Source of the DNA: Bacteroidales bacterium
Lineage (GTDB): Bacteria > Bacteroidota > Bacteroidia > Bacteroidales > F082
Direction: 5' to 3'
Length of the DNA: 33,617 nt
Assembly (NCBI GenBank): GCA_017549605.1
Contig: JAFYUH010000160.1
Location: forward strand, 1 to 33,617
In this document: in pieces, positions 753-33,429 of the stretch
Position numbering within the stretch: position 1 is the stretch's first letter
Layout of the letters: every line of letters starts with the position of its first letter
Notes under the pieces: model-generated
What the model was told of the DNA's origin: nothing
Database searches by the model: none
What the model saw: only the letters and a program-made list of their open reading frames with translations
Position numbers and translations under genes: made by a program

Positions 753-787
753 AAATTAGGAATTAATAATTAGGAATTAGGAATTAT
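753..787. repeat. Heptamer array, AATTAGG family
   Basis: Degenerate tandem copies of a 7-bp unit AATTAGG with one AATTAAT variant, in the ileS/glyS intergenic region directly upstream of the ileS -7 box. The same family recurs at 2505, 3773, 6958, 7872 and 13623. Confidence 0.85.
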
Positions 788-810
788 TTTTTTCAATATC
801 TCTTCGCATA

Positions 811-850
811 ACAAAAAAATCCGCTACAATTTCTCGCAGCGGATTTCTTA
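811..850 (-). terminator. Intrinsic terminator of glyS
   Basis: A perfect 9-bp inverted repeat (AAATCCGCT at 817-825, AGCGGATTT at 838-846) with a 12-nt loop. Read on the minus strand it ends in a run of seven T (811-819 region), so it terminates glyS transcription about 60 nt after the stop codon. Confidence 0.85.
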
Positions 851-869
851 TAACTAAAACTCATTTCTG

Positions 870-907
870 AGTTCTAAGATTTTAAAGTTCTAAGATTCTA
901 GAATTTT
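870..907. repeat. Octamer array abutting the glyS stop
   Basis: 8-bp units of the form AGTTCTAA / GATTCTAG in tandem. The array reaches the glyS stop codon (906-908), lying between the gene and its terminator hairpin. Confidence 0.75.
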
Positions 908-2435
908 ATTTCACTCTCTTAGGAGCAATTTTATTTCTGATGATTGTGTAGAGTTCGTCAGCATTTACGCGGATTTGTTCCATAGTATCGCGGTCGCGGA
1001 CTGTAACTGTGTTGTCTTCCAAAGTCTGGTTGTCGATAGTAACACAGAGTGGAGTACCGATAGCGTCTTGTCTTCTGTAACGTTTGCCGATAGAGTCTTT
1101 TTCTTCGTATTGGCACATGAAGTCTGGTGTGAGTTGTTCCATGATTTCGCGTGCTTTTTCTGGAAGACCGTCTTTCTTGACGAGAGGCAAGATAGCGACT
1201 TTATAAGGAGCCAATGCTGCTGGGAATTTCATCACAACGCGTTCTGAGCCGTCTTCGAGTTTTTCTTCTGTATAAGCGTGGCTCAACATAGCGAGGAACA
1301 TACGGTCCAAACCGATTGATGTCTCGATAACGTAAGGAACGTAGCTTTCGTTTGTCTCTGGATCGAAATATTGGAGTTTCTTGCCTGAGAACTTAGAATG
1401 GCTGCTGAGGTCGAAGTCTGTACGGCTGTGAATACCTTCCAATTCTTTGAAGCCAAATGGGAATTCGAATTCGATGTCGGTAGCTGCATTAGCATAGTGA
1501 GCCAATTTTTCATGATCGTGGTAACGATATTTTTCAGCTGGGATACCGAGTGAGAGATGCCATCTGAGACGTTCTTCTTTCCAGTGTTTGAACCATTCGA
1601 GTTCAGTGCCAGGGCGTACGAAGAACTGCATTTCCATTTGTTCGAATTCTCTCATTCTAAAGATAAACTGACGAGCCACGATTTCGTTACGGAATGCCTT
1701 ACCTGTCTGTGCGATACCGAAAGGCACTTTCATTCTACCAGTCTTTTGAATGTTGAGGTAGTTAACGAAGATACCTTGTGCTGTCTCAGGACGGAGGTAG
1801 ATTTCGTTTGCGCCTTCTGCTACAGAACCCATCTGTGTAGCGAACATAAGGTTGAATTGACGAACATCAGTCCAGTTGCGTGAGCCAGAGATTGGACAAA
1901 CAATGCCGAGGTCTTCGATAAGCTGTTTGATGCCAACGAGGTCGTTGTTTTCCATAGCAACGTAAAGACGATGGCTGATGTCTTCTATTTCTTGTTTATA
2001 ACCAAGAACGCGAGCGTTTGTAGAAACGAACTGTTCCTTATCGAAAGCTTCGCCGAAACGTTTCTTTGCTTTCTCTACTTCCTTGTTGATTTTATCTTCA
2101 ATCTTAGCGATATGATCTTCTACGAGGACGTCAGCGCGATAGCGTTTCTTGCTGTCTTTATTGTCAATCATAGGGTCGTTGAATGCATCAACGTGACCTG
2201 AAGCCTTCCATACTGTTGGATGCATGAAGATCGCTGCGTCAACGCCAACGATGTTTTCGTGCATCTGCACCATGGCTTTCCACCAGTATTGGCGGATGTT
2301 ATTCTTTAATTCAACACCGTTTTGACCGTAGTCATAAACAGCTGAAAGTCCGTCATAGATATCACTTGAAGGGAATACGAAACCATATTCCTTAGCGTGA
2401 GCTGTTATCTTCTTGAAAAATTCTTCTTGATTCAT
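906..2435 (-). CDS. glyS: Glycyl-tRNA synthetase (single-chain, class II)
   Basis: Charges tRNA-Gly. The protein is 509 residues from the ATG at 2435 (MNQEEFFKKI). The frame continues nine codons further upstream, but that part is repeat-derived, so the internal ATG is preferred. Class II features visible: GSRNWTDVRQFNLMF, motif 2 FRNEI in the context GKAFRNEIVARQF, the RPETAQGIF glycine-site segment, motif 3 IGLDRMFLAML, then an anticodon-binding domain starting APYKVAILPLVKKDG. This is the alpha2 GlyRS used by Bacteroidota and eukaryotes, not the alpha2beta2 type. It may be cotranscribed with queA, 100 bp upstream, since no -7 box is seen between them. It ends with a good terminator at 811-850. 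Confidence 0.96.
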   Translation of the reverse strand: MNQEEFFKKITAHAKEYGFVFPSSDIYDGLSAVYDYGQNGVELKNNIRQYWWKAMVQMHENIVGVDAAIFMHPTVWKASGHVDAFNDPMIDNKDSKKRYRADVLVEDHIAKIEDKINKEVEKAKKRFGEAFDKEQFVSTNARVLGYKQEIEDISHRLYVAMENNDLVGIKQLIEDLGIVCPISGSRNWTDVRQFNLMFATQMGSVAEGANEIYLRPETAQGIFVNYLNIQKTGRMKVPFGIAQTGKAFRNEIVARQFIFRMREFEQMEMQFFVRPGTELEWFKHWKEERLRWHLSLGIPAEKYRYHDHEKLAHYANAATDIEFEFPFGFKELEGIHSRTDFDLSSHSKFSGKKLQYFDPETNESYVPYVIETSIGLDRMFLAMLSHAYTEEKLEDGSERVVMKFPAALAPYKVAILPLVKKDGLPEKAREIMEQLTPDFMCQYEEKDSIGKRYRRQDAIGTPLCVTIDNQTLEDNTVTVRDRDTMEQIRVNADELYTIIRNKIAPKRVK

Positions 2436-2443
2436 GTTTTTTA

Positions 2444-2479
2444 TGCTATGAGCTGTGGGCAATGAGCTTTGAGCTCAAG
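2444..2479. repeat. Heptamer array, ATGAGC family
   Basis: Tandem units around the core ATGAGCT/TTGAGCT immediately upstream of the glyS ATG. It creates a spurious nine-codon upstream extension of the glyS frame. The 13 bp just beyond it (AAGTCCATCATTG, from about 2480) match the inner right arm of the 79-bp palindrome at 9729, suggesting a remnant of that family. Confidence 0.75.
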
Positions 2480-2504
2480 TCCATCATTGTTAATTACAAT
2501 TAAA

Positions 2505-2540
2505 ATAATTCCTAATTCCTAACTCCTCATTCCTAATTAT
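2505..2540. repeat. Heptamer array, AATTAGG family, at the queA stop
   Basis: About five 7-bp units of TCCTAAT/TCCTAAC. The queA stop codon TAA (2537-2539) is the first triplet of the array on the minus strand. Confidence 0.85.
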
Positions 2541-3610
2541 AAAATGAGCATAGCGTCGCCGTAGGTGAAGAAACGATATTTCTCTGCTACAGCTGTTTTA
2601 TATGCCTTCATAAGCAATTCATAACCAGCGAATGCTGCTACTTCCATCATCATTGATGACTTAGGAAGGTGGAAGTTTGTTATGAGAGCGTCTGCTGTGT
2701 TAAAGTCGTAATGAGGGAAGATGAACTTGTTTGTCCATCCTTTATAAGGATTTATCTGACCTGAGATTGTTACAGATGTCTCGAGAGCTTTGAGAGATGT
2801 TGTTCCAACTGCGAAGATCTTGTGACGCTCAGCCTTAGCTGCGTTGATGATATCGCAAGTCTCTTGTGTGATTTCCATCTCTTCTGAGTCTGTCTTATGT
2901 TTTGTAAGGTCTTCAACCTCGATATCGCGGAAGTTACCCACGCCTGTATGGAGAGTGAGTTCTGCAAACTGAACGTCACGGAGTTCGAGGTGTTTCATAA
3001 GAGATTTGCTGAAGTGCATACCTGCTGTTGGAGCAGCCACAGCGCCTTCGCATTTAGCGAATACTGTTTGATAGTTTTCAGCGTCTTCTTCTACATTTTG
3101 TTCCTCGCCAGCTTTCTCACGAGCGTGTTGTATCTCTACAGGAATAGGAGTGTTACCTAATTCTGTGATTGTCTTTTTGAATTCTTCGTGAGTTCCGTCA
3201 AATAAGAAACGTAATGTTCTACCGCGTGATGTAGTGTTGTCGATGACTTCAGCTACTAAATCGTCGTTCTCGCCGAAATACAATTTATTACCGATACGGA
3301 TCTTACGTGCTGGGTCTACGAGTACGTCCCAGAGACGGCTTTCGTGATTGAGTTCACGGAGCAACATAACTTCGATCTTAGCACCTGTCTTTTCCTTTTC
3401 GCCATAAAGACGTGCTGGGAAAACCTTGGTGTTGTTAAGTACGAATACGTCACCAGCGTCGACATAATCCAAAATATCTTTAAATGTACGGTGTTCGATG
3501 GAACCATCTCTACGGTTAACGACCATCAAACGAGATTCATCTCTGTTTCTTGCCGGATGTTGGGCAATGAGTTCTGCAGGAAGGTTAAATTTGAATTGAG
3601 ATAACTTCAT
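2537..3610 (-). CDS. queA: S-adenosylmethionine:tRNA ribosyltransferase-isomerase
   Basis: Transfers the ribosyl moiety of SAM to 7-deazaguanine at tRNA position 34 to make epoxyqueuosine in queuosine synthesis. 357 residues, full length for the family, from ATG 3610 ([19 protein letters not shown]). Visible QueA motifs: the N-terminal [16 protein letters not shown] block, [10 protein letters not shown] in the middle, [16 protein letters not shown], and the C-terminal [16 protein letters not shown] followed by FAGYELL..AY. A strong promoter (TTG, 20 nt, TATATTTG) lies at 3647-3677. glyS follows in the same direction after 101 bp. No anomaly within the frame; the stop abuts a heptamer array. 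Confidence 0.96.
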
Positions 3611-3646
3611 TATATAATGATTTTATGTTATTTCTTGGGAAAGTCA

Positions 3647-3677
3647 CAAATATAATATCAGAATGAAGTTTTGTCAA
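3647..3677 (-). promoter_or_regulatory. Promoter of queA
   Basis: On the minus strand a TTG (3677-3675) is separated by 20 nt from TATATTTG (3654-3647), close to the Bacteroidota TTTG-N19-TAnnTTTG consensus. The leader to the ATG would be about 30 nt. Confidence 0.7.
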
Positions 3678-3773: not shown

Positions 3774-3806
3774 AATTCCTAACCCCTAATTCCTAATTCC
3801 TAATTA
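3773..3806. repeat. Heptamer array encoding the end of the PfoR-like gene
   Basis: About four and a half units of TCCTAAT. On the minus strand it supplies the last residues (LIRN) and the TAG stop of the upstream membrane-protein gene. Confidence 0.85.
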
Positions 3807-4821: not shown

Positions 4822-4893
4822 ATGCCATGAGCATTGGGCTATGAGCCATGAGCATTTATTGAATTGCCCTTAGCTCTTGGCTCATTGCTCAAA
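4822..4893. repeat. Heptamer array, ATGAGC family, between DUF3109 and PfoR-like genes
   Basis: Units of GCCATGA/GCATTGG/GCTATGA, then the inverted sense GCTCATT near 4875-4890, so the two halves could pair. The DUF3109 stop TGA (4891-4889) lies at the array edge. Confidence 0.75.
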
Positions 4894-6892: not shown

Positions 6893-6966
6893 GCATATTA
6901 TTACATTTTTTCGAGGATAAAATTAGTGATTTGTTACACTTTTTCGATGATAAAACAACACTCCTA
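6868..6966. repeat. Three 33-bp direct repeats upstream of the AAA-DUF4143 gene
   Basis: Copies start at 6868, 6901 and 6934, exactly 33 bp apart. Each begins TTACA(C/T)TTTTTCGA(G/T)GATAAAA; the remaining ten or so bases vary. Only the copy nearest the gene has both promoter boxes; the outermost keeps the TTG but lacks TTTG, and the middle lacks both. The period is about three DNA turns, so a regulator could bind all copies on one face. Confidence 0.9.
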
Positions 6967-6997
6967 ACTCCTAACTCCTAATTCCTAACTCCTAACT
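6958..6997. repeat. Heptamer array, AACTCCT family
   Basis: Five tandem 7-bp units of AACTCCT/AATTCCT, continuing directly from the last 33-bp repeat. No coding function seen. Confidence 0.85.
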
Positions 6998-7051: not shown

Positions 7052-7088
7052 ACTTGGTGTCTCGGTGACTCAGTGACTTGGTGTCTTA
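7052..7088. repeat. Octamer array, GACTCGGT family, at the nuclease stop
   Basis: 8-bp units TGGTGTCT, CGGTGACT, CAGTGACT, TGGTGTCT. The TAA stop of the WHH nuclease gene (7088-7086) is its last triplet. Confidence 0.85.
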
Positions 7089-7871: not shown

Positions 7872-7968
7872 ATAGTTAGGAGTTGAGACTTAGGAATTAG
7901 GAATTGATGCGTCTGATTAGTTAGGATTTGAGGGATTAGCAACCATTAGTCTTTTGCCATTAGCCATC
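7872..7968. repeat. Mixed heptamer arrays (TTAGGAG and CCATTAG families)
   Basis: Units of AGTTAGG/AATTAGG at 7872-7935 are followed by CCATTAGTCTTTTGCCATTA units at 7943-7966, which abut the TGA stop of the ABC ATPase gene (7969-7967). Nothing else is seen in this stretch. Confidence 0.75.
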
Positions 7969-9712
7969 ACATCTTGCAAATCGCCGCTATCAATTTCTTA
8001 GTGTAATCGTTTTGCGGATTGTTAAAGAGTGCGTCGGCTTCGTTCATCTCCTGAATCTTGCCGTTATACATCACCACAACTCTGTCGGACATGAATCTTA
8101 CAACGCCGAGGTCGTGGGAGATAAATATATATGTGAAACCGAATTCTTTCTTTAATCTGTTAATAAGATTTAACACCTGAGCCTGCACTGAGACGTCGAG
8201 AGCAGAAACCGACTCGTCGCAGATTATCAGTTTCGGATTAACAGCAAGTGCGCGTGCAATACAAATGCGCTGCCTCTGACCTCCAGAGAACTCATGCGGA
8301 TAACGCTGATAATGCGACGCCTCCAATCCTACTTCCTCCAAAAGATGGCGAACTCTCTCTCTTCTCTTCCTAGCGTCTTTTTCAATGCCATGAACCATCA
8401 TCGGCTCAGCGATAGAGTCGCCAATACAAATACGAGGATTCAATGAAGAATACGGATCCTGGAAAACAATCTGCGCCTGCTTGCGGTATTCTCGCAACTC
8501 CTTACTATTTAACTTCGTGATGTCTCTTCCTTCAAAAATGACATTTCCTGAAGTAGGTTCCACCAATCTTAAAATACTGCGTCCTAAAGTCGTTTTGCCG
8601 CATCCCGACTCGCCCACAAGTCCGAGCGTCTCGCCTGGATATACGTCGAAACTGACATCATTCACGGATTTTATGTAGTCGTAAGTACGTCCGAAGACGC
8701 CTTTACGAAGCGGATACCAAGTCCTGAGATTCTGCACTTTAAGAATTGGTTCCTGAGAATACAATAGTTCGTGATGTTTTTGTCTTACATCGTAAGTGAT
8801 AAGCAATTCGTTCTTAACCTGCTCATTGTTGCTCCACTTTCCATCGAGGAATTCCTTCACAATAGGAAGTCGCTCCAGACGATAATCAAGCGGCGGGCGA
8901 CAAGCGATGAGACCTTTTGTATAAGGATGCTGAGGATTATTCAAGATATCGTGGGTCTTGCCTCTTTCCACGATGACGCCTTTGTTCATCACGATGACAT
9001 CGTCGGCGATTTCGGAAACCACGCCAAGGTCGTGAGTGATGAATATCATTCCCATTCCGTTCTCGCGTTGCAGTTCCTTAAGAAGTTTCAAGATTTCCTT
9101 CTGCACTGTCACATCGAGAGCCGTCGTAGGCTCATCAGCGATAAGCACTTTCGGATTGGAAATAAGAGCCATCGCTATCATAACTCTCTGCTTCTGACCG
9201 CCAGAGAGTTCATGAGGATATTTATCGAAAATTATCTCTGGATCAGGAAGTTTCACCTTTTCGAAAAGTTCTAGAACTTTTCTCTTAGACTCCAAGTCAC
9301 CAAGACTCCTAGACCCCTTGGTGACTCGGCGACTCGGTGACTCGGTGGCTTTAAAGCCGAAGGCTTCCATCACCTGAAATCCACATTTATAAACCGGATT
9401 GAGAGACGTCATCGGTTCCTGGAAAATCATCGCGATTTTCTTGCCGCGTATCTCCGACATCTGATCGTCGTTATAACGAGAGATATCTATATCTTCCAAT
9501 AAGATGGAATCTGATTCTATTCGTGACTTACGGCTGTCGAGAAGCTGCATCACTGCGAGGTTACTAACGGACTTACCAGATCCCGACTCTCCAACTATAC
9601 CGAGAGTCTTGCCCTCAAACACTTCAAAGTCGACGCCATGCACCGCCTCCTGCCATTTATCATCACGGCAGAAAGAGATATGGAGATTATTGACTTTCAG
9701 AAGTGGGGCCAT
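7967..9712 (-). CDS. Fused two-domain peptide/nickel-type ABC transporter ATPase (DppD-DppF like)
   Basis: 581 residues, two complete ABC nucleotide-binding domains in one chain, as in Bacteroidota oligopeptide transporter ATPases. Domain 1: Walker A GESGSGKS (41-48), Q-loop [11 protein letters not shown], signature LSGGQKQR near 168, Walker [13 protein letters not shown], plus the oligopeptide extension [18 protein letters not shown]. Domain 2: Walker [10 protein letters not shown] near 366, signature FSGGQRQR near 474, Walker [13 protein letters not shown]. No permease or binding-protein gene is adjacent. An octamer repeat is inserted in frame at about residues 121-141 of domain 1, between Q-loop and signature. 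The likely promoter is at 9837-9844, so the leader contains the 79-bp palindrome at 9729. Confidence 0.93.
9289..9352. repeat. In-frame octamer array inside the ABC ATPase gene
   Basis: On the coding strand, units of TCACCGAG followed by an inverted copy, so CACCAAG and CTTGGTG arms can pair (about 10 bp). It encodes roughly [20 protein letters not shown]. The same octamer family lies in intergenic DNA at 7052, 10416 and 17460, which shows this is an insertion rather than native protein sequence. Confidence 0.85.
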
Positions 9713-9916: not shown

Positions 9917-10393
9917 ATGAAAAACTTCCTTGAATTATTAAAAAGCAGACGTACATGCCGTCAGTTCACTAACAAATCCGTCAGTAAAGAATCTATAGAA
10001 TATATCTTAGAAGCAGCGCGTCTATCGCCATCAGGACATCGCATCAGACCTTGGGATTTCATCGTCGTGGAAGACAAGGAAACTCTTAAGGCATTGTCGG
10101 TCAGCAAGGCATCAGGAGCTGCTCTCATAGAAGGAGCTGCTGCCGCTATCGTAGTCGCTGCCGACATCACAAAGACAGATGTCTGGGTTGAAGACTGCTC
10201 CATCGCGACAATCATCATACAGCTCGCAGCAGAAGAACTAGGTCTCGGCAGCTGCTGGGTACAGATCCGCATGCGTAAAGACGCCGAAGGCAATGACGCC
10301 ACCGAAAACGTCAAGAGAATACTCAATTTACCAGAAAATTATTCTGTGCTTTCAATAGTAGCGATAGGACATAAGTTAAACTCTGAACGCTGA
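9917..10393 (+). CDS. Nitroreductase family protein (FMN-dependent)
   Basis: 158 residues, ATG 9917 (MKNFLELLKSRRTCRQFTNK). The N-terminal RRTCRQF and LSPSGHRIRPWDFIVV segments are the FMN-phosphate and isoalloxazine-binding motifs of the nitroreductase fold, and AAEELGLGSCWVQIR is the conserved helix-strand after the insertion. It is likely a small NAD(P)H-dependent oxidoreductase; substrate unknown. It is a single-gene unit, convergent with comF, which ends 55 bp downstream. The last residues (NSER) and the TGA stop are encoded by a TTTGAAC-family heptamer array. Confidence 0.92.
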   Translation: MKNFLELLKSRRTCRQFTNKSVSKESIEYILEAARLSPSGHRIRPWDFIVVEDKETLKALSVSKASGAALIEGAAAAIVVAADITKTDVWVEDCSIATIIIQLAAEELGLGSCWVQIRMRKDAEGNDATENVKRILNLPENYSVLSIVAIGHKLNSER

Positions 10394-10412
10394 ACTTTGA
10401 ACCTTGAACTTC
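10377..10412. repeat. Heptamer array, TTTGAAC family, at the nitroreductase stop
   Basis: TCTGAAC, GCTGAAC, TTTGAAC, CTTGAAC in tandem. The first units are coding and the second provides the TGA stop (10391-10393). Confidence 0.85.
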
Positions 10413-10415
10413 CTT

Positions 10416-10449
10416 AGCGACTCGGGGACTTGGTGACTCGGTGTCTTAT
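10416..10449. repeat. Octamer array, GACTCGGT family, at the comF stop
   Basis: GACTCGGG, GACTTGGT, GACTCGGT, then GTCTTA. With the heptamer array next to it, it fills the whole 55-bp convergent intergenic space; no ordinary terminator hairpin is seen there. Confidence 0.85.
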
Positions 10450-11489: not shown

Positions 11490-11580
11490 CAGTTTAAGGT
11501 TTAAGGCTTAAAGTTTAAGGCAGTTTATAGTGTATTTAAAACCATCGTCTTTAGCCATTTGCCCTTAGCCTTTAGCCTTT
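11490..11580. repeat. Heptamer arrays (TTTAAGG and GCCTTTA families) between tRNA-Cys and folB
   Basis: Two arrays: GTTTAAG/GCTTAAA units at about 11490-11520, and GTCTTTA, GCCATTT, GCCCTTA, GCCTTTA units at about 11547-11580. On the minus strand the second encodes the last two residues and the TAA stop of folB. Confidence 0.8.
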
Positions 11581-11927: not shown

Positions 11928-11960
11928 TAATGACTAAAGACAAATGGCTAAAGAATAAAG
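11928..11960. repeat. Short degenerate array upstream of folB
   Basis: ATGACTAAAGACAAATGGCT with a further CTAAAGA unit, the same CTAAAG family as at 11547 and 12022, just before the folB start. Confidence 0.55.
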
Positions 11961-12021
11961 TACCTTCGGCCATTGTCTTTATTTTATTTCAAGATTCTAT
12001 TAATTTACTTTTATTTCCAAC

Positions 12022-12052
12022 TTTTGTCTTTAGCCTTTAGTCCTTAGCCTAG
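12022..12052. repeat. Heptamer array, GCCTTTA family, at the gltX stop
   Basis: GTCTTTA, GCCTTTA, GTCCTTA, GCCTAGC. The gltX terminal residues LG and the TAA stop (12046-12044) lie within it. Confidence 0.8.
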
Positions 12053-13622: not shown

Positions 13623-13688
13623 ACATTCCTAAGCCCTAATTCCTAATTAAAAAAAACCGTAGTCCGTAGTCTATAGTCCATAGTCTTT
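13623..13688. repeat. Two heptamer arrays in the gltX/DUF4175 divergent region
   Basis: TCCTAAG/CCCTAAT/TCCTAAT units at 13627-13648, then TAGTCCG, TAGTCTA, TAGTCCA, TAGTCTT at 13662-13688. The second ends a few bases before the DUF4175 -7 box and occupies its -33 region. Confidence 0.85.
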
Positions 13689-19492: not shown

Positions 19493-20398
19493 ATGAGTAA
19501 AAAATGTCCATGGTGTAATTCAGAAAACAATCATCAGTTTTTGGAATTGAAAGATTATTTTCTCACTCAAGAGCAATTCGAGATATTAGAATGCAACGAG
19601 TGCGGACTTCTATTTACCAGCCCATGCCCTACTCCTGATAAAATCGGCAGTTACTATAAATCCGAGGATTATTTAAGTCATAACGAGGATAAAAAAGGAC
19701 TGTTCGCAAAGATCTATAATGAGGTCAAAAAGATAAATATTAAAAATAAATTTAATATTGCAACCAAAAGCCAAAAGCCAAAAGCTAAAAGCTTATTAGA
19801 TATCGGTTGCGGCGTTGGCGATTTCTTGCTTTATGCTAAAGAAAACGGATGTAATATCACCGGCATCGAACCAAGCGAAGACGCAAGAAAAATAGCAGAG
19901 AAAAAACTCGACTGCAAAATCTTGCCTCCAGAAGAACTTCAGAACATTCCTGATAACTCTTTCGATATAGTAACAATGTGGCACGTCTTAGAACACGTCG
20001 CCGATCTTAAAACAGAAATTCATCACCTTCAAAGAATTCTTAAAAAAGACGGCAAACTGGTTCTGGCTCTTCCAAACTATAAATCATACGATGCCGAATA
20101 TTATAAAGACAAATGGGCGGCTTATGACGTTCCAAGACATTTAAGCCACTTCTCCAGGACATCAATCAATAATATTTTTAAAGAAACAAACTTGCAACTT
20201 ATTGATATTAAACCGCTTAAATGGGATAGCTTCTACATTTCCATGCTCAGCGAACAATATCTTAACAGCAAGAACAGCTTCCTTAAAGGCATATTAACAG
20301 GTTGGAAATCAAATAGAAAAGCAAAGAAATCAGGAGAATATTCAAGCTTGGTATATATATTTGAGGTCAACGGACAACAGTCAACAGACAACAGATAA
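19493..20398 (+). CDS. Class I SAM-dependent methyltransferase with N-terminal zinc-binding motif
   Basis: 301 residues, ATG 19493. An N-terminal CPWCN...CNECG zinc-ribbon (residues 5-8 and 34-38) precedes a Methyltransf_23-type domain with the SAM loop LLDIGCGVGDFLLYA near 102-116, the acidic motif GIEPSE, and FDIVTMWHVLEHV. The substrate is unknown; such enzymes often act on sugars, quinone precursors or small molecules. Two heptamer arrays are in frame: TKSQKPKAKS just before the SAM motif (residues about 91-100) and a C-terminal tail NGQQSTDNR that ends in the stop. It follows mnmG closely and may share its transcript. Confidence 0.85.
   Translation: MSKKCPWCNSENNHQFLELKDYFLTQEQFEILECNECGLLFTSPCPTPDKIGSYYKSEDYLSHNEDKKGLFAKIYNEVKKINIKNKFNIATKSQKPKAKSLLDIGCGVGDFLLYAKENGCNITGIEPSEDARKIAEKKLDCKILPPEELQNIPDNSFDIVTMWHVLEHVADLKTEIHHLQRILKKDGKLVLALPNYKSYDAEYYKDKWAAYDVPRHLSHFSRTSINNIFKETNLQLIDIKPLKWDSFYISMLSEQYLNSKNSFLKGILTGWKSNRKAKKSGEYSSLVYIFEVNGQQSTDNR
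19764..19793. repeat. In-frame heptamer array (CCAAAAG) in the methyltransferase
   Basis: CCAAAAG, CCAAAAG, CCAAAAG, CTAAAAG. Stop-free in the frame used; encodes TKSQKPKAKS between the N-terminal part and the SAM motif. Confidence 0.8.
20366..20397. repeat. In-frame heptamer array (CAACGGA/CAACAGA) at the methyltransferase C-terminus
   Basis: TCAACGGA, CAACAGT, CAACAGA, CAACAGA then TAA. Encodes the tail VNGQQSTDNR and the stop. The palindrome at 20402 begins 5 bp later. Confidence 0.85.
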
Positions 20399-24302: not shown

Positions 24303-27266
24303 ATGAGAAAGTTAGTTTTTTGTTTTATCATAATGCTTCTTACATGTGGCATTAGTATTGCACAAAATGTGATTGATCCTGAATTACAGGCTATTATAGA
24401 TCAAAAAGGAAACGAAAAAATCAGCGTAAACATAATTTTCAAGTCACAGCCAAACCGTGACTATTTAAGAGAACGCTCAAACAATTTCATCGACAAGGAA
24501 ACAAAACGTCAGGCTGTGATTCAAGAGCTGAAGAATTTTTCAGAAGAGTCACAACACGATGTTCTCTCAATCATAAAATCCGCTGAAGGCAAAAACCAAG
24601 CTTCAGACATCGTCTGTCACTGGCTTTCAAACGCCATCACATGTACCACCACAAAAGCCGTCATTGAAGAATTAGCGAAACGCGACGACATCCTTTTGAT
24701 CGGACACAACTGCGACAAAGACGTGCTTCTTGGAGCAGTCAGCGGCGAAGCAAGATCAGGTGCAGAATTAACAGAAAACGTCATCCAGGTCAACGCTCCT
24801 AAAGTTTGGGAGATGGGTTACACTGGAGAAGGCATTTTGGTTGCCATATTAGACACCGGCGTCAACTACGAACATCCAGACCTCGCCGACCACCTCTGGG
24901 ACGGCGGTTCACAATATCCAAATCACGGATTCGACTCATATAATAACGGCAAGGAAACGATGGACAGAAGAGGACACGGCACACACTGCGCTGGCATCAT
25001 ATGCGGCGATGGCAATAGCGGCGAGAAACAAACAGGCGTCGCTCCAAACGTAACGCTAATGTGTATCAAAGCATTAAGCGATGAAGGATCTGCCAATGCC
25101 AACTCAATATGTTCAGGCATGGAGTTCGCAGTAGAACACGGTGCTGATGTCTTAAGCATGTCATTAGGCATTGCCAACGCATCAGTAACAGACAGAACCA
25201 TAATACGTCAGACATGCGTCAACGTTTTGGAAGCAGGCGTGATTGCTTCTGTGGCAGCGGGCAACGAAGGCGAAAAGCTAAACAGCAACCCTGTTCCTGA
25301 CAACGTCAGAGTTCCAGGCAGCTGCCCAGCACCATGGATTCACCCTGACCAACAAGGCAACGCCGGCGGCACTTCATGCGTCGTCTCTGTAGGCGCTGTC
25401 GACAAAAACGATAAAGTAGCTTCTATATCATCACGCGGTCCTGTCACATGGCAGAACACTTCTTACGCCGACTATGCATACAACCCAGGCATCGGCTTGA
25501 TCCGCCCTGACGTATGCGCACCTGGCAAAGATATCGTCTCCCTCGACTATAACAGCAACGGCTATGTGAAGATGACAGGCACATCAATGGCAACTCCTTG
25601 CGTTGCAGGCGTCATCAGCCTTATGTTATCAAAAAATCCTGAACTGACACCAGCAGAGATAAGCATGTTATTAGAGACAACAGCCGTGAAACTCGCTGAT
25701 ACTAAAAACAATGAGACAGGATCGGGCAGGGTAGACGCTCTAGCTGCAGTAAACGCTATCGACATGGGTAACATAATATTCAAAGAACTTGCCTTCACCG
25801 ATGAAAACAATAACGGCAACATAAACACTGGAGAAGAAATAAAGCTTAACGTCAAATTCGAAAACACTGCAGACGTAGCATACAATAACATCACTGCTAA
25901 GTTAACTTGCACCAACGACTTGGTCAACATCACAAAAGCCAACGCAGAGATAAACAATATCGCTGCAAATCAGATATTTGACATCAATAACGTATTTACT
26001 TTCGCAGTAGACGAAAAAGTAGAAGACCAAGAAAAACTCCATTTCGACGTTGAGTTTTATGATGGCAGCAAGAGAATCTCATCAACAAGATTTTCAGTCA
26101 CAGTGACAGACAAGGCCATCAAGTTCTCTACTATCATCATCAGCAACGATGACAACGGCAACGGAATACTCGAGGCTGGCGAGACTGCAGATTTCGGCAT
26201 CGTTTTGAATAACGCAGGAAACGAAATAGCAGTGAAATTAAACGGAACATTGAAGAGCAACAGTCAGTTGATCACCATCGACAACAACAATGCAGACTTC
26301 GGTTCTTTAGCGCCAAACAGCTCATCAACAGCATATTTCAAGGTGACATTGTCAAATAGCGCAACAAGCAATACCGACATTCCATTCGAATTGGAATTAA
26401 CAGACAAATATAATGACGTAAAGAAAATCAGCTTCGATTATGTAGGTTCATGCGACATCATCTACACCTTACGCGACGACTACGGCGATGGCTGGATGGG
26501 CGCCAAAATCATTGCTCATTATAACGACAATTCTGAATCAGACACTTACACACTTACAAGCGGATCTGTCGGAACTTTCACCAAGACATTAAACACAGGC
26601 GTTGAAGTGTCTCTCGAATGGAAGAAAGGCAGCATGGACTCAGAATGCAGATACAGCATCAACTACGCAAACGGCGCTGAGATATATAACGGCAAAGGAA
26701 CACAAAAAGGCACATTCTTCAGCTGGGTCAACAATTGTTCTACACAAGACATAAGCATAAAGACAGGCGAAGCCGTCAAGAAGCTCGAACTCAAAGCAGG
26801 AAGCAAGTCAGTGACATTACACTGGGAAGCTCCTGAAACAGAAGGCGTAGTAGCTTATGAAATCTATCGCGAGACAATACTCCTCGGCACAACAGAAAAC
26901 CTCTCTTATAATGACAATAACTTAAGCAGCGGAACTTACACCTATAACGTAAGAGCTGTCTACGAAGACTGTAATGGCGCTACAGCTTCACAAGATATCG
27001 CATTCTACGAAAGCATCAACGATATGTTCGTTCCAAACGTGACGATATATCCAAATCCTGCTAACGACAAAGTATTTATCGAAGCAGAAGCTGAGATAGA
27101 AGAGGTTGTTGTTTATACAATAACTGGCGTTATTGTTGGTCAACGGACAACAGTCAACGGACAACAGACATTGAGCATAAATGTCTCTGATTTAAGCAAA
27201 GGCGTTTATTTTATAAATGTCAAGACTGGCGCTGGCAGTGTCGTCAAGAAAATAATAAAACATTAA
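24303..27266 (+). CDS. Secreted subtilisin-like (S8) peptidase with T9SS C-terminal domain
   Basis: 987 residues. A signal peptide (MRKLVFCFIIMLLTCGISIA) is followed by a propeptide-like region and an S8 domain with the full triad: D184 in ILDTGVNYEHPDL, H225 in GHGTHCAGI, S428 in GTSMATPCVAGV. After it come two acidic Asn/Asp-rich CARDB-like domains (DENNNGNINTGEE, NDDNGNGILEAGE), a domain with DDYGDGWMGA, a fibronectin type III domain (LHWEAPETEGVVAYEIYRE) and a C-terminal sorting domain beginning VTIYPNPANDKVFIEA and ending VVKKIIKH, the mark of type IX secretion. A heptamer array at 27141-27170 is in frame inside this sorting domain (Q947-T956). The flippase gene follows after 10 bp. Confidence 0.94.
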   Translation: MRKLVFCFIIMLLTCGISIAQNVIDPELQAIIDQKGNEKISVNIIFKSQPNRDYLRERSNNFIDKETKRQAVIQELKNFSEESQHDVLSIIKSAEGKNQASDIVCHWLSNAITCTTTKAVIEELAKRDDILLIGHNCDKDVLLGAVSGEARSGAELTENVIQVNAPKVWEMGYTGEGILVAILDTGVNYEHPDLADHLWDGGSQYPNHGFDSYNNGKETMDRRGHGTHCAGIICGDGNSGEKQTGVAPNVTLMCIKALSDEGSANANSICSGMEFAVEHGADVLSMSLGIANASVTDRTIIRQTCVNVLEAGVIASVAAGNEGEKLNSNPVPDNVRVPGSCPAPWIHPDQQGNAGGTSCVVSVGAVDKNDKVASISSRGPVTWQNTSYADYAYNPGIGLIRPDVCAPGKDIVSLDYNSNGYVKMTGTSMATPCVAGVISLMLSKNPELTPAEISMLLETTAVKLADTKNNETGSGRVDALAAVNAIDMGNIIFKELAFTDENNNGNINTGEEIKLNVKFENTADVAYNNITAKLTCTNDLVNITKANAEINNIAANQIFDINNVFTFAVDEKVEDQEKLHFDVEFYDGSKRISSTRFSVTVTDKAIKFSTIIISNDDNGNGILEAGETADFGIVLNNAGNEIAVKLNGTLKSNSQLITIDNNNADFGSLAPNSSSTAYFKVTLSNSATSNTDIPFELELTDKYNDVKKISFDYVGSCDIIYTLRDDYGDGWMGAKIIAHYNDNSESDTYTLTSGSVGTFTKTLNTGVEVSLEWKKGSMDSECRYSINYANGAEIYNGKGTQKGTFFSWVNNCSTQDISIKTGEAVKKLELKAGSKSVTLHWEAPETEGVVAYEIYRETILLGTTENLSYNDNNLSSGTYTYNVRAVYEDCNGATASQDIAFYESINDMFVPNVTIYPNPANDKVFIEAEAEIEEVVVYTITGVIVGQRTTVNGQQTLSINVSDLSKGVYFINVKTGAGSVVKKIIKH
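27141..27170. repeat. In-frame heptamer array in the T9SS sorting domain
   Basis: CAACGGA, CAACAGT, CAACGGA, CAACAGA. Encodes QRTTVNGQQT, inserted in the loop between VVVYTITGVIV and INVSDLSKGVYF, two strands that are adjacent in ordinary sorting domains. Confidence 0.9.
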
Positions 27267-29330: not shown

Positions 29331-29402
29331 TTGAACTTTGAGCTTTGAACTTTGAACCAGAAATGGACAAAGTCTGTTGACCGTTGTCTGTTGTCTGTAG
29401 AC
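29331..29402. repeat. TTTGAAC array followed by GTCTGTTGACCGTT array
   Basis: TTGAACTTTGAGCTTTGAAC with a further unit at 29331-29358, then an array of GTCTGTT/GACCGTT units at 29373-29401, the reverse sense of CAACGGA. Positions 29363-29388 are identical to 33184-33209. The array creates a false upstream extension of the TPR frame. Confidence 0.85.
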
Positions 29403-29416: not shown

Positions 29417-31117
29417 ATGCGAAGAATCTTATTCATATTATCATTGTTATTGGCGAATTCCGTGGCGGGATTCTGTCAGGATACGATACAACCTAAAATG
29501 AGCTTGGCTCAGAATGCTGAGGCTTTTTCCAAGGGATTAGCAGAGAAATACAATGAGAACTTCGACATGGCGATAGCTTATTTCGAAGAGGCATTGAAGG
29601 CTTTTCCTGAAGATCATGCGAGCATGTATGAACTCAGCGCATTATACAGCAGAAAAGGTCTGCCGGAAAAAGGTTTCGAGATGATCAAGGCAGCCGTCGA
29701 ACTCGACAGCACAAACAAATGGTATAAGATTCGCCTCGCTGACTTCTACAGCCAGAACAACGACTACGATTCGTTCGTGAACATCTACGACGACCTGCTC
29801 AAAGATGAACCTAACAATCTGGAATATCTGGAAGTATATATCGACGCCTTGCTTCATCTTGAAAGATACGAGCAAGTGACAGAGAAGCTCGATGTCTTTG
29901 AAGACAATATCGGTGTAAATGAATATATCTCACTACAGAAACTTGAGATTTACAACCTATTAGGCAATAAGGATAAAGTCATTGAGGAAATGGAGAAACT
30001 TTCCAAGGCATATCCTTATGAAACCAGATATATGTCAGTCTTGGCAGAGATGTACATGCAAGACAAAAGAGATCAAGACGCATTGAACGTATATCTCAAG
30101 ATCAAGGAAATCAACCCAGAAGACCCTTATATCAACACTTCATTGTTGGAATATTACCAGAAACAAGGCGAACTCGACAAGGCTTTCGAGGAGTTTATTT
30201 TGGCCATAAAGAACAAGAAGCTTGATTACAACACCAAGGCACAGATTTATGAATATTGGTTCAATCTAAAGGATGACGGAGACAACACCGTCAAGGAAGC
30301 CGAGATAGCAGGCAATGCTTTCATAGAGACACATCCAGACAAAGAACTAGGATATTATGTGATTGGCACTGTGCATTATAACAACGAGAACTATGCAGAA
30401 GCGAAGAAATATTACATGGACGCGATAGCTCGTGACAGCAGCAGTTTCATATCATGGTATCAGCTCATCTTCACCGACCTTGAACTTAATGATACTGAAG
30501 GTTTATACGAACACACGATGAAGGCGCAGCGCTTCTATCCTGAGCAGCCTATCTTCTACCTCTTTAACGGCGTGGCTCTAATTGAAATGCAAAAATATCA
30601 AGAAGCCGCCAAAGTCCTTGAGAAAGGAAGATATTTGTCAGCCGACAAAAAACTCACAGTAAACTTCGACACCTATCTCGCTGACATATATCACGAACTC
30701 GGCGAGAAAGACAAGATGTATAAGCAATACGACAGAGTGCTCAAAAACGATCCTGAAAACATTTATGTGTTAAACAACTACGCATATTTCCTTTCTGAAG
30801 ATAACACACGTTTGGAAGACGCACTGAGAATGTCGGCCGTAACAGTAGAGAAAGAACCTAAAAACACTACATATTTAGACACTTACGCCTGGGTTCTTTA
30901 TAAATTAGGCCGCTACAAAGAAGCAAAGAAATGGATGGAGAAAGTGTTCTCCTATGACAAAAACGCCAGCGGTGTCTACTACGAACATTATGGCGATATT
31001 TTGTATAAATTCGGCGACACGCAGAAGGCCGTACAAAACTGGAAGAAAGCCAAGAAACTCGGCGAGACATCAGAGTTTATTGACCAAAAGATAAGAGATG
31101 AGAAACTCTATGAGTAG
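29417..31117 (+). CDS. Secreted tetratricopeptide repeat protein
   Basis: 566 residues from ATG 29417 (MRRILFILSLLLANSVAGFC), where a normal signal peptide begins; the longer frame from TTG 29384 is heptamer-repeat sequence. Cleavage is likely at GFC|QD, typical of Bacteroidota envelope proteins. The rest is a series of TPR-like helical pairs (for example AEAFSKGLAEKYNENFDMAI, DPENIYVLNNYAYFLSED, TTYLDTYAWVLYKLGRYKEA). Such proteins are periplasmic scaffolds. It precedes the DUF4292 lipoprotein and EnvC-like genes, a Bacteroidales gene order, suggesting a role in envelope assembly. It overlaps the next gene by 8-20 bp. Confidence 0.9.
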   Translation: MRRILFILSLLLANSVAGFCQDTIQPKMSLAQNAEAFSKGLAEKYNENFDMAIAYFEEALKAFPEDHASMYELSALYSRKGLPEKGFEMIKAAVELDSTNKWYKIRLADFYSQNNDYDSFVNIYDDLLKDEPNNLEYLEVYIDALLHLERYEQVTEKLDVFEDNIGVNEYISLQKLEIYNLLGNKDKVIEEMEKLSKAYPYETRYMSVLAEMYMQDKRDQDALNVYLKIKEINPEDPYINTSLLEYYQKQGELDKAFEEFILAIKNKKLDYNTKAQIYEYWFNLKDDGDNTVKEAEIAGNAFIETHPDKELGYYVIGTVHYNNENYAEAKKYYMDAIARDSSSFISWYQLIFTDLELNDTEGLYEHTMKAQRFYPEQPIFYLFNGVALIEMQKYQEAAKVLEKGRYLSADKKLTVNFDTYLADIYHELGEKDKMYKQYDRVLKNDPENIYVLNNYAYFLSEDNTRLEDALRMSAVTVEKEPKNTTYLDTYAWVLYKLGRYKEAKKWMEKVFSYDKNASGVYYEHYGDILYKFGDTQKAVQNWKKAKKLGETSEFIDQKIRDEKLYE

Positions 31118-31919
31118 ACAACGGACAACAGACAACGGACAACAGACATTTTTGGCCACTGAGTTCAGGCATCATTCATTGCTCATTGCTCATTGCTCAT
31201 TGCTCATTGCCATTATCTTCGTTCTTGGCTCCTGTTCTACAAATAAAAGTATGTCGGGTCTCAGGAACTTATCGGCGAATCATATCTTAAGAGAAGTCGA
31301 GAGAAACCAGTTTGAGTTCGACAATCTCGCGACGAAGTTCAATGTTAAAGTCAAAGGCGATAACAGCATCGGACTTAAAGGTCAGCTGAGGATGCAGAAC
31401 GACAGCGTGATATGGGTTTCAGTATCGTTGAAATTAGGTATTGAAATGGCGAGAGTGATGATAACCGAAGACTCCGTGAAGTTCATAAACAGGACTGAGA
31501 AGACATATCTTGCTGAAAGCATAGATGATTTCAAGTCGCGACTTCCAAGCGAGGCGACGATAAGTTTCTTGCAGGATATGCTTGTCGGAAACGACATCCA
31601 ATTCAATGACAACGAGAAATTCAAAGTCAGCATTGAAGACAACAGCTACAAACTCGCATCAGAAAAAAACACCTTCTGGGTCACGCCGAAGATATTTAAG
31701 GTCAACAGACAACGGACAACGGACAACGGACAACAGACAATCATAGACCTTATCTACGATAATTTTCAGGAAATCAATGGTAAACTTTTACCAACGAAGA
31801 TCATCTTAGATACTAACGACGAATTTGACATAAACATAGAAATAGATTATACAGAAGTAAAAGTAGGAGAGAAGTTAGAATTTCCTTTTAACATCTCAAA
31901 AAAATATAGTAGAATATGA
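31098..31919 (+). CDS. DUF4292 family lipoprotein with repeat-built N-terminus
   Basis: 273 residues from ATG 31098; ATG 31110, overlapping the TPR stop as ATGAGTAG, is equally possible. The mature part from C46 (lipobox VLGSC) to the end is a DUF4292 protein, an outer-membrane-lipoprotein-like beta fold (LKGQLRMQNDSVIWVSVSLKL). Before the cysteine, two repeat arrays are in frame: RQRTTDNGQQT from CAACGGA heptamers and HSLLIAHCSLLIAI from ATTGCTC heptamers, the latter forming the hydrophobic core of the signal peptide. A third array inside the domain gives NRQRTTDNGQQT (residues ~203-214). EnvC-like starts in the ATGA overlap at the stop. Envelope role inferred. Confidence 0.82.
   Translation: MRNSMSRQRTTDNGQQTFLATEFRHHSLLIAHCSLLIAIIFVLGSCSTNKSMSGLRNLSANHILREVERNQFEFDNLATKFNVKVKGDNSIGLKGQLRMQNDSVIWVSVSLKLGIEMARVMITEDSVKFINRTEKTYLAESIDDFKSRLPSEATISFLQDMLVGNDIQFNDNEKFKVSIEDNSYKLASEKNTFWVTPKIFKVNRQRTTDNGQQTIIDLIYDNFQEINGKLLPTKIILDTNDEFDINIEIDYTEVKVGEKLEFPFNISKKYSRI
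31116..31148. repeat. In-frame CAACGGA heptamer array at the DUF4292 N-terminus
   Basis: GACAACG, GACAACA, GACAACG, GACAACA units. Starts at the stop codon of the TPR gene and reads RQRTTDNGQQT in the DUF4292 frame. Confidence 0.9.
31174..31212. repeat. In-frame ATTGCTC heptamer array forming the signal-peptide core
   Basis: Five near-perfect ATTGCTC units, reading SLLIAHC, a 7-residue hydrophobic period, directly before the lipobox. Confidence 0.9.
31702..31740. repeat. In-frame CAACGGA heptamer array inside DUF4292
   Basis: CAACAGA, CAACGGA, CAACGGA, CAACGGA, CAACAGA. Encodes NRQRTTDNGQQT between two beta-strand-like segments (KIFKV and IIDLIYD). Confidence 0.9.
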
Positions 31920-33157
31920 AATTCAGAAATCCAGAAACTCAGAAACTCAGAAGTTCAAAGCCTCAGAAGTTTTGGATTTTATTATTCCTATTAATTCTGG
32001 CTATTTCTGCTAATTGCCAAAGCGTTGAGTCTTTGGAGAAGAAGATCAAGTCTATCCAGAAGGACATCAAACTAGCAGAAAAGCTTTTGAAAGAGACCTC
32101 CAAAAACAAGGAAGCCACCATCAACCAGGTGTCGTTGCTTCAGACTCAGATCAATCAGAGAGAGGCACTCATCAAGACATACCAGAGTCAGGTCAACACG
32201 CTGAACAAGGAGATTCAGAAAAACAAGAACGGCATAACAGCTGCCAAGAAAGACCTCGCTCTTTTTCAACAAGAATACGCTAATCTTTTGGTCATAGCCT
32301 ATCGCAACAAAGGCAAGACCAACAATCTCTTATTCATATTTTCTTCAGAAGACTTCAACCAGGCGATGCGCAGAATGCGTTATCTTCAAGAACTTAACGA
32401 CTTGGTGAAAGTCAAGATAGAAGAGATAAAAGCCACACAGGACAAAATCAACAGGCAGTTGAACAAGAACGAAGCCAACAAGAGAGAGATTGAGAAAGTA
32501 CTGGCAAAAGAAAAAGAAGAGAAAGCCTCTTTGATGAAAGACCGCGACAAACTCAACAAGGACATCGCGTCTTTGAAGAAGAAAGAAAGTCAGATTCAGA
32601 AAGACATCAAGAACAAGGAAAACGAGACCAAGAAACTCAAGAAGGAGATTGAAAAGATCATAGCCGAGGAAATCAGAAAGGCCAAGGAAAGAGAAGAACT
32701 GGCGAAGAAAAATAACACCAATTCTGTCGATTACAATCTCTCTAACAGTTTCGCCCAGAACAAAGGCAAGCTCCCTTATCCTGTAGAGCAAGGCATCATC
32801 ACAGGACGATACGGATTGACGCCACACCCTACACAACCTAAAGTGACTGTCAACAACAACGGCGTCGACATCAGCACGACAAGAGGAGCAAAAGCACGCA
32901 GCGTCTTCGAGGGCGAGGTCTGTTTCGTCACAAGCCAAGGCAACAACAACGCGATACTCATCCGTCACGGATTATACTTCACCTTATATTCCAACCTCGA
33001 GAAGGTATTCGTCAAGACTGGTGACAAGGTCGCGACAGGACAAGAGATAGGACGTATTCACACAAACGTCAGCGACGGCAAGACAATATTGCACTTCGAG
33101 ATCTGGCAGGAAAACAGAACTACGGTAAATCCGGCCTTGTGGATTAAGAAAAATTGA
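31916..33157 (+). CDS. EnvC-like murein hydrolase activator (degenerate M23 domain)
   Basis: 413 residues, ATG 31916, overlapping the DUF4292 stop by 4 bp. Signal peptide core FWILLFLLILAISANC, likely cut before QSVESL; then a long coiled coil (~residues 40-260) and a C-terminal LytM/M23 domain (VEQGIITGRYG, NNNGVDIST, ILIRHGLYFTLYSNL, ILHFEIW). Two zinc-ligand histidines of active M23 enzymes are replaced (N in NNNGVD, I in ILHFE), as in EnvC and NlpD activators, so it probably activates an amidase at division rather than cutting peptidoglycan. The first ~18 residues before the hydrophobic core come from an octamer array. The stop TGA lies in another array. Confidence 0.9.
   Translation: MKFRNPETQKLRSSKPQKFWILLFLLILAISANCQSVESLEKKIKSIQKDIKLAEKLLKETSKNKEATINQVSLLQTQINQREALIKTYQSQVNTLNKEIQKNKNGITAAKKDLALFQQEYANLLVIAYRNKGKTNNLLFIFSSEDFNQAMRRMRYLQELNDLVKVKIEEIKATQDKINRQLNKNEANKREIEKVLAKEKEEKASLMKDRDKLNKDIASLKKKESQIQKDIKNKENETKKLKKEIEKIIAEEIRKAKEREELAKKNNTNSVDYNLSNSFAQNKGKLPYPVEQGIITGRYGLTPHPTQPKVTVNNNGVDISTTRGAKARSVFEGEVCFVTSQGNNNAILIRHGLYFTLYSNLEKVFVKTGDKVATGQEIGRIHTNVSDGKTILHFEIWQENRTTVNPALWIKKN
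31921..31976. repeat. In-frame octamer array at the EnvC-like N-terminus
   Basis: TTCAGAAA, TCCAGAAA, CTCAGAAA, CTCAGAAG, TTCAAAGC, CTCAGAAG. Encodes FRNPETQKLRSSKPQK, the positively charged region before the signal-peptide core. Confidence 0.85.
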
Positions 33158-33182
33158 AAGTTGAAAATTGAAAATTGAAAGT
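33153..33182. repeat. Heptamer array, GAAAATT family, at the EnvC-like stop
   Basis: GAAAGTT, GAAAATT, GAAAATT, GAAAGTT; the TGA stop (33155-33157) is in its first unit. Confidence 0.85.
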
Positions 33183-33183
33183 T

Positions 33184-33223
33184 ATGGACAAAGTCTGTTG
33201 ACCGTTGTCCGTTGACTGTTGAC
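33184..33223. repeat. GTCTGTTGACCGTT heptamer array with shared leader
   Basis: ATGGACAAA then GTCTGTT, GACCGTT, GTCCGTT, GACTGTT, GAC. The first 26 bp are identical to 29363-29388. Confidence 0.85.
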
Positions 33224-33231
33224 TAATTATT

Positions 33232-33363
33232 ATGAAAAGAAATCGAATTTTTATTATAGCAGCGATAATAGTTGGAATATTATTATCCTCATGCAGCAGG
33301 GCATATCAACCTGCTAACATTCAGAAGAAAAAAAACAACTGCAGAACCTGTTCAAGATGGTGA
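33232..33363 (+). CDS. Small lipoprotein, 43 residues
   Basis: ATG 33232: MKRNRIFIIAAIIVGILLSS followed by the lipobox cysteine of LLSSC, then SRAYQPANIQKKKNNCRTC and SRW to the TGA at 33361. A signal peptide with type II cleavage site and a short tail with a paired-cysteine CRTC motif. Tiny lipoproteins with a CxxC-like C-terminus next to envelope genes occur in Bacteroidota; I know of no function. It is too short for usual ORF filters but the lipobox and position after EnvC-like make it credible. Confidence 0.7.
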   Translation: MKRNRIFIIAAIIVGILLSSCSRAYQPANIQKKKNNCRTCSRW

Positions 33364-33364
33364 A

Positions 33365-33429
33365 AAATGAGGTATGTCTGTTGACCGTTGACCGTTGTCT
33401 GTTGACTATAAAATAAATCTCCCTCATTT
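33365..33429. repeat. Heptamer array held between the arms of an 8-bp inverted repeat
   Basis: AAATGAGG (33365-33372) and CCTCATTT (33422-33429) are perfect complements and enclose GTCTGTT/GACCGTT units (33375-33407). It may have been the terminator stem of the lipoprotein operon, with the array now in its loop. Confidence 0.5.

Follow-up and report, generated by a model that had tools for sequence, protein, structure and literature searches.

How does a chromosome come to be strewn with short tandem arrays whose units agree in length but hardly in sequence? The question is raised by a stretch of 33,617 nucleotides from a Bacteroidales bacterium of the lineage F082 (contig JAFYUH010000160.1 of assembly GCA_017549605.1, hereafter the window), in which an earlier note had counted about 30 arrays of degenerate 7- or 8-bp units and had proposed that one mechanism fixes the length of the units. 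Here, we show that the arrays of the main families behave as discrete and directional elements, typically of the form A(BA)4, and that the sets of words they are made of differ among the sampled species.

The window belongs to a metagenome-assembled genome (MAG) of 205 contigs and 2.53 Mb that is 84.75% complete (the own MAG, G000). Together with 20 further stretches of this MAG it makes up the own sample of 400,617 bases. These 20 stretches were picked from contigs with known AATTAGG matches, which may inflate the density of arrays but should not affect the contrast between periods. The stretches of two relatives, G009 and G027, were also in part selected by such matches, but no such selection entered those of G023, G034, G020 or the sister clade. 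G009, the nearest relative, is rated 100% complete and was used for comparisons site by site.

Arrays of two unit lengths

Arrays were called with Tandem Repeats Finder (TRF, minimum score 30) and with a periodicity scan (score of at least 12 or at least 8), and were compared with 20 dinucleotide shuffles of the window, with matches to reversed words and with 50 kb of E. coli K-12. TRF returned 52 rows for the window, many of them with period 7, 8 or 14. At a score of at least 12, the scan found 15 arrays of period 7 and two of period 8, and none at periods 4-6 and 9-13; the shuffles had none at periods 7 and 8. The lower threshold gave 35 rows with period 7, 8, 14 or 16, which we judged to be 28 arrays and seven chance matches, and TRF contributed the arrays at 2445 and 4824 beyond these. 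The earlier count of about 30 was thus correct, and every unit named then was recovered, as itself, as a rotation or as a complement. Many words do coexist in the window, but the AATTAGG arrays at 754, 2506, 3778, 6960, 7890 and 13628 form a single family.

The genome-wide distribution of periods, proposed earlier as a check, has peaks in the own sample at 7 (133 arrays) and 8 (66 arrays, about one third of the two classes together), with at most 10 arrays at each other period from 2 to 30. Three successive copies of AATTAGG, with up to three mismatches, match 255 times in the MAG and once when the word is reversed. The 50 kb of E. coli K-12 had no array at any period from 2 to 30, and 80 named Bacteroidota loci (1.53 Mb) had 16 arrays of period 7 and four of period 8 at a slightly lower threshold. 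The arrays of the window are confirmed as real.

Anatomy of the arrays

In several large families the array is A(BA)n, in which a 4-nt motif A occurs five times, separated by a spacer B of 3 or 4 nt. The family CAACRGW illustrates this best: 45 of its 56 arrays with at least three units have exactly four (70 two-unit matches being left out), and five of its seven positions are 95-99% conserved, while the other two vary (68/29 A/G and 68/24 A/T). Array lengths are correspondingly narrow. Among the own 7-mer arrays 57 of 141 measure 31-33 bp, and the commonest length of the own 8-mer arrays is 36 bp, with 13 of 69 at 35-37 bp. In sister species that use other words, 12 of 18 7-mer arrays measure 30-33 bp. 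The own median lengths are 32 bp for CAACRGW, AATTCAT and AAATTGA, 33 bp for RTKAGGA and 31 bp for GGYTWAW among the 7-mers, and 36 bp for RCCRAGWC and 37 bp for RAGTCWAT among the 8-mers; in G009 they are 35 bp for AAGACYAC and 36 bp for AAGWCAAC.

The ends of these arrays are locked as well. CAACRGW arrays start at RGWCAAC in 43 of 50 cases, RTKAGGA arrays share one start phase in 31 of 36, and RCCRAGWC arrays do so in 16 of 19 cases in the own sample and in all ten in G009. In the locked families, a single start phase goes with a few neighboring end phases, which gives the motif of about 4 nt its five occurrences.

Independence of units

Within arrays, neighboring units resemble each other little more than units drawn from elsewhere. 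Adjacent CAACRGW units are identical in 33 of 122 cases (0.27, against 0.34 expected), and the observed and expected values are 0.32 and 0.41 for RTTAGGA, 0.29 and 0.26 for YYTGARC, and 0.11 and 0.09 for TCARAANY. Two families lean the opposite way, GGAAYTRA (0.38 against 0.28) and GWCTYGGY (0.25 against 0.18). Degenerate positions vary in linkage equilibrium: in none of six tests, which covered five families, did the variance of pairwise differences between haplotypes exceed that of column shuffles (fractions 0.11-0.58). Taken together, the likeness of adjacent units and the variance tests imply that in the large families most copies are neither faithful copies of one another nor grown by duplication of a neighbor.

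Polarity of neighboring arrays

Arrays often lie close to each other, and their orientations are not random. When the sign of each family was optimized, 97 adjacent pairs from four genomes comprised 64 convergent, two divergent and 31 same-way pairs. The polarity score of 62 compares with a maximum of 34 in 200 sets with random orientations and of 42 in 200 sets with flipped order, signs being re-optimized each time. In a strict cross-family subset, where directions were set from the families' own pairs, 17 pairs were convergent, two divergent and 12 same-way. Across the own sample, G009 and G023, cross-family pairs were convergent 33 times and divergent twice at gaps of up to 60 bp, and 35 and five times at gaps of up to 100 bp. 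Inverted neighbors of the same family, in these three genomes, have the word U followed by its complement 30 times and the reverse order never, a count that is partly circular when taken alone, because directions were set after such pairs had been seen. In the sister clade, pairs within a family were "-+", the opposite order, twice and "+-" once, with the direction of GACTAAW set by hand; the TAGTC-first order is identical in all three.

The order of arrays holds in every gene arrangement of the own sample, with 25 convergent and one divergent pair between tandem genes, seven and none between convergent genes, and three and none between divergent genes. Gene direction is therefore not the main cause of polarity and was rejected as such, even though U arrays prevail 33:13 in gaps between two plus-strand genes. 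In gaps between two minus-strand genes the ratio is 31:36, so that the tie to gene strand is only loose. The templating of one arm by the other through a hairpin was also rejected, since likeness was lower between the arms of 25 pairs (0.451) than between random arms (0.540). Separately, at four loci of G023 (L166-L169) inverted AACKGAR arrays lie close against each other, in some cases with a gap of 0; the free position there seems by eye to favor G in left arms and A in right arms.

The statement in the earlier note that the arrays share only the length of their unit was too weak, as unit number, array length and, in the pair test, polarity are common to different families too.

A common habit with a changing vocabulary

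The units are recurring degenerate words, 18 of which were scored in the stretches of the own MAG, G009, G027, G023 and the sister clade. Eleven have at least six arrays in the own sample: the 7-mers CAACRGW, RTKAGGA, YYTGARC, AATTCAT, AAATTGA and GGYTWAW, and the 8-mers RCCRAGWC, TCARAANY, GGRWYTRA, GGGTATRA and RAGTCWAT. The word AATTAGG is patchily distributed among 60 relatives. It has 222 matches in G009 (19 for the reversed control), 179 in G027 (4) and 146 in G023 (18), with further matches in G014 (45), G008 (36) and G045, a genome of another family (57). G051 has 96 matches, but its reversed control has 50. Samples of G045 and G051 (40 and 38 kb) contained three arrays of period 7 or 8 each. 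Eight genomes at 80-82% MnmG identity have only 0-2 matches (G005, G011, G015, G017, G025, G026, G032 and G035), and the five of them that were sampled (G011, G015, G017, G025 and G026) have arrays of period 7 or 8 made of other words, at lower density. The habit is thus common, and the vocabulary is not. Little was learned from the pattern GTACCAAG, which matched in 16 of 60 genomes of the phylum, with two mismatches at each place among the matches listed.

Genomic sites and turnover

Of the 236 own arrays assigned to a site, 158 fall between genes, 50 within called genes (37 sense, 13 antisense) and 28 at the ends of stretches, genes having been called with a simple codon-usage script. Within genes, arrays add or replace codons, as in the methyltransferase, the tail of the subtilase, the DUF4292 gene and the ABC transporter of the window. 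At 17 of 19 window sites the sequence could be aligned with that of G009, in some cases poorly; inspection by eye showed a different family of repeats in G009 at six of these 17 and the same family at one. Between the two genomes gene order is scrambled, and arrays are found at broken and at kept neighbors alike. In window positions 1-5443, ileS, the glyS-queA block and the gene at 4889-5443 are arranged differently from G009, the breakpoints falling in gaps that carry arrays.

ARTKAGG arrays recur in the first part of the window, at 754..786 (plus strand, 33 bp, intergenic), 2506..2538 (minus, 33 bp, where the equivalent place of G009 has AGTTCTAA-type repeats), 3778..3805 (minus, adjoining a REP-like palindrome), 6960..6997 (minus, 38 bp), 7890..7905 (plus, only 16 bp) and 13628..13648 (minus). 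Among these lie a 28-bp array of the 8-mer AGTTCTAA adjoining the 3' end of glyS (870..897, plus), a GCTATGA-type 7-mer array in a gap that carries ACCACAAG-type repeats in G009 (2445..2475, minus), a GCCATGA 7-mer array called by TRF (4824..4853, minus) and an array of the 8-mer RAGWCRCC (7056..7078, minus). Repeats of the RAGWCRCC type occur in both orientations at 9282..9347, within the ABC transporter gene (7967-9712, minus); G009 has AGAATTCT-type repeats there, and about 13 residues are missing in G015, G017, G025 and G026. A YYTGARC array (10379..10409, plus) then converges with a RAGWCRCC array (10419..10443, minus), and a GTTTAAG/GGYTWAW array (11492..11518, plus) forms the left arm of a convergent pair with a GGYTWAW array (11554..11580, minus). 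The 5' end of the open reading frame (ORF) 11572-11973 (minus) has an array of the GACTAAW type (11929..11954, plus), a family kept there in G009; further on lie a GACTAAW/GGCTAAW array (12021..12050, minus) and a GACTAYR array (13657..13685, minus).

More arrays within genes are found further along. The methyltransferase gene has an in-frame GCCAAAA array (19764..19793, plus) at codons where G009 has CAACAGA-type repeats, and ends with a CAACRGW array as its final codons (20368..20395, plus). CAACRGW arrays also lie in frame in the sorting domain of the subtilase (27139..27170, plus) and in the DUF4292 gene (31703..31740, plus), where G009 has native codons of similar length instead. The start of an EnvC-like gene holds a 35-bp array of the 8-mer TCARAANY (31918..31952, plus). 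A YYTGARC left arm (29331..29357, plus) and a CAACRGW right arm (29376..29398, minus) form a cross-family convergent pair, in a gap that has a AAGTCAAT/ATAGACTC inverted pair in G009. A 32-bp CAACRGW left arm (31117..31148, plus), at a place where G009 has ACTACAAG-type repeats, has a 35-bp AGCAATG array as its right neighbor (31176..31210, minus). A 31-bp AAATTGA left arm (33150..33180, plus), where G009 has GTTTAAG-type repeats, faces a CAACRGW right arm (33197..33224, minus), and a last CAACRGW array lies at 33380..33404 (minus).

Other repeats are interspersed with the arrays. Repetitive extragenic palindromic (REP) and REPIN sequences are short, intergenic and paired palindromes, not tandem words. 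REP-like palindromes were seen by eye in the window at 3720-3772, 7000-7055, 20396-20470 and 29260-29330. A REP-like core, GTAGAGACG, has 46 matches in the 400-kb sample, 24 of them no more than 60 bp from an array, whereas 6.9% of random positions are that near; the association is partly confounded, as both are mostly intergenic. In addition, a 33-bp repeat of 2.8 copies (6868-6958, TRF) adjoins an ARTKAGG array, a small ORF that matches WHH and colicin-DNase nucleases (7086-7610) is perhaps a toxin remnant, and a longer interspersed repeat, in which GTGGCGTCTGAAAGGAAAAAA forms tandem copies of 21 bp, is clustered in L113 at 14064-15252.

Discussion

In their main families, the arrays look more like writing into DNA in one go than like ordinary slips of copying. 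As the origin of the arrays we tentatively propose templated repeat addition at two DNA ends, resembling that of telomerase or of the reverse transcriptase DRT10, followed by joining of the ends; we give this reading a probability of roughly one in three. Repeat-adding synthesis would act on 3' DNA ends, where a short A-B-A' template, of 11 nt in the case of 7-mers and 12 nt in that of 8-mers, would be copied about four times. At each round the end would re-align on A, and the product would measure 32 or 36 nt. In the window Rfam matched only a tRNA, and a template this short would look the same as the arrays themselves. Before joining, one end of a break might be extended, or both; if both, the left would carry U(n) and the right its complement, each side having its own independent words. 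Subsequent slippage could lengthen some arrays. The pattern expected of such a product, periodic, A-B-A'-like and quantized in length, is present in the phase and length data of several families. The earlier idea of one shared mechanism is supported insofar as many families, though their words differ, have unit number, length and, in the pair test, polarity in common, but its suggestion of slippage at a fixed register fits poorly.

Several observations weigh against templated addition. Searches for reverse transcriptases, Y1 transposases and Ku do not supply an enzyme that makes the arrays; all three were rejected as the maker, since their presence does not track the arrays. RVT_1 (PF00078) has no match in the array-rich G027 nor in the array-bearing G011, G015 and G025, although a divergent reverse transcriptase may lie beyond the reach of the model. 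None of the 60 genomes searched, with the own MAG among those listed, has a match to Ku, which makes Ku-type end joining unlikely as the joining step. No break has been observed, and the copying of a template does not by itself account for two free bases at one position. YYTGARC (median 36 bp) and GGRWYTRA (47 bp), two large families, are not phase-locked, TCARAANY (median 41 bp) and AACKGAR are only partly so (12 of 27 and 8 of 16), CAACRGW has its usual start in only three of seven arrays of G009, and lengths in G027 spread from 19 to 67 bp, with four of 21 at 31-33 bp. CAACRGW shows an excess of identical haplotype pairs (17 against 7.8, fraction 0.005), and in RAGTCWAT, GGYTWAW, GGRWYTRA, AACKGAR, AAGACYAC and AAGWCAAC likeness is greater within arrays than between them. 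Finally, the directions of families were partly set by hand after pairs had been inspected, and are ambiguous where similar words sit on opposite strands, as with GGATTTGA and the complement of TCARAANY. In the own genome, an automatic count based on the likeness of words found 24 comparisons to be consistent and 18 not, the latter between words placed in different families or involving L111:2740.

The sole reverse transcriptase of the own MAG resembles that of a diversity-generating retroelement, which is a further point against a telomerase-like role. It lies at L185 (G000:C47:23000-29000), where positions 429-1430 and 1996-3630 hold an ORF that weakly matches Lcl_C and the reverse-transcriptase ORF. 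The latter starts with an asparagine-rich copy of the end of the Lcl_C-like ORF, and the locus looks like such a retroelement.

Among the alternatives, the one that survives best, unlikely as we hold it, is that each family is a tiny mobile element of 32-36 bp, comparable to REP sequences or miniature inverted-repeat transposable elements, copied as DNA by a transposase and often as an inverted pair. Dispersed copies, the locked ends of several families, inverted pairs, some identical haplotypes and the nearness of REP-like cores (24 of 46, partly confounded) would all fit. Yet the variance test shows no clonal linkage; cross-family pairs follow the same polarity as the others, and paired arms are less alike than random ones. 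Furthermore, the Y1 transposase (PF01797), the only transposase searched for, gave no match in G027, in G017 or in the own MAG, which is 84.75% complete.

It is rather doubtful that the arrays are binding sites, kept by selection, of a multi-subunit protein or RNA factor that reads the 4-nt motif every 7-8 bp. Degeneracy that is independent and specific to positions, together with a set spacing, is typical of such sites, and the excess of intergenic over coding arrays (158 against 50) and the prevalence of U arrays in plus-plus gaps (33:13) point the same way. This does not square with whole families being swapped at orthologous sites, with the many different words, with arrays inside genes or with the 31:36 orientation in minus-minus gaps.

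Replication slippage with a polymerase register of 7-8 nt seems still less probable. A 7-nt polymerase footprint was proposed by Mrazek (2007), as cited in MacGregor (2015; PMC4679880), and would match the peaks at 7 and 8. Longer arrays exist, including those of G027 and a GGAAYTRA array of 25 units, and the neighbors in GGAAYTRA and GWCTYGGY, like the units within arrays of the six smaller families, are somewhat more alike than expected. Nevertheless, neighbors in CAACRGW, RTTAGGA, YYTGARC and TCARAANY are not clearly more alike, and slippage leaves aside the recurrence of families at many loci and the polarity. A fixed register of slippage is a poor fit, since in most of the large families adjacent units resemble each other no more than those of other loci do, and the number of units peaks sharply. 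An artefact of assembly or binning, which a MAG of 205 contigs might suggest, is hardly credible, as the same architecture recurs in G009 (rated 100% complete), a second relative, and in named Bacteroidota contigs, including a Flavobacterium record (L012) not labelled as a MAG.

How new are these arrays? They differ from REP and REPIN sequences in that the own MAG has no Y1 transposase match. Cyanobacterial heptanucleotide repeats (STRRs) and the GGGGA(C/T)T repeats of Nostoc are likewise degenerate and mostly intergenic heptamers. The Nostoc patterns, as given in excerpts of Rehm et al. (2015; PMC4692102), differ in spanning 39-179 nt and in having only a few inverted pairs. The same excerpts describe the nearest precedent, the GGGAATC/GGGANTN heptamers of Xanthomonas, which have 2 to 26 units, four in the majority, and two free positions. 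They are dispersed, 89-93% intergenic, and in two genomes form 70 and 75 close pairs that converge, and the prominent repeats lie at different genes in two species. Our arrays share with them the mostly four heptamer units with free positions (in CAACRGW, RTKAGGA and others, YYTGARC not being locked) and the convergent close pairs, so that the same kind of array is already known for one G-rich family. Unlike that family with its single unit length, the arrays studied here have many words of 7 and 8 nt, cross-family pairs, the form A(BA)4 and sets of words that differ among species; read off their units, CAACRGW, AATTCAT and most others lack three-G runs, and a G-rich, quadruplex-type unit was not seen. 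To this known kind our data add a multiplicity of families, a second unit length, the rule of five motifs, linkage equilibrium and cross-family polarity; the first two and the last look new against the literature searched.

The open-access literature searched held no description of multi-family 7/8-mer arrays in Bacteroidota. The broader statement in the earlier note, that nothing of the kind was described in Bacteroidales, needs trimming, since TAACTGA heptamer repeats are reported from Beggiatoaceae, cyanobacteria and five Bacteroidetes including Paludibacter (MacGregor 2015; PMC4679880). These also form arrays of 2-6 units in the main genome and are patchy across phyla, some close relatives having gaps that are shorter and show no obvious repeats. 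They differ in that a single family was studied and that the arrays of the main genome mostly lie in one orientation upstream of genes, with one inverted repeat. A 2007 survey cited there found heptamers to be the most abundant repeat class in most genomes rich in repeats of 5-11 nt. As for mechanism, DRT10 synthesizes tandem repeats in bacteria by re-alignment on an A-B-A' template (PMC12632851, in part), and vertebrate telomerase is held to leave telomeric repeats at repaired breaks (PMC8537989, in part). The template logic that yields quantized repeats and the insertion at breaks that yields interstitial arrays are alike. No reverse transcriptase common to the array-bearing genomes was found with PF00078, and chromosomal insertion is not claimed for DRT10 in the part of that source available to us.

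We can speculate, with considerable doubt, that Bacteroidota have a system for writing repeats, by which DNA ends are capped or healed through the addition of template copies in a fixed number, and that the arrays are the interstitial scars it leaves, similar to telomeres but in words specific to each species; the Xanthomonas heptamers would then be the same in another phylum. A sharp unit number, the independence of units and convergence across families, for which slippage alone is insufficient, are testable marks of a directional writing step. Because the arrays add or replace codons, they also shape the proteins of these bacteria.

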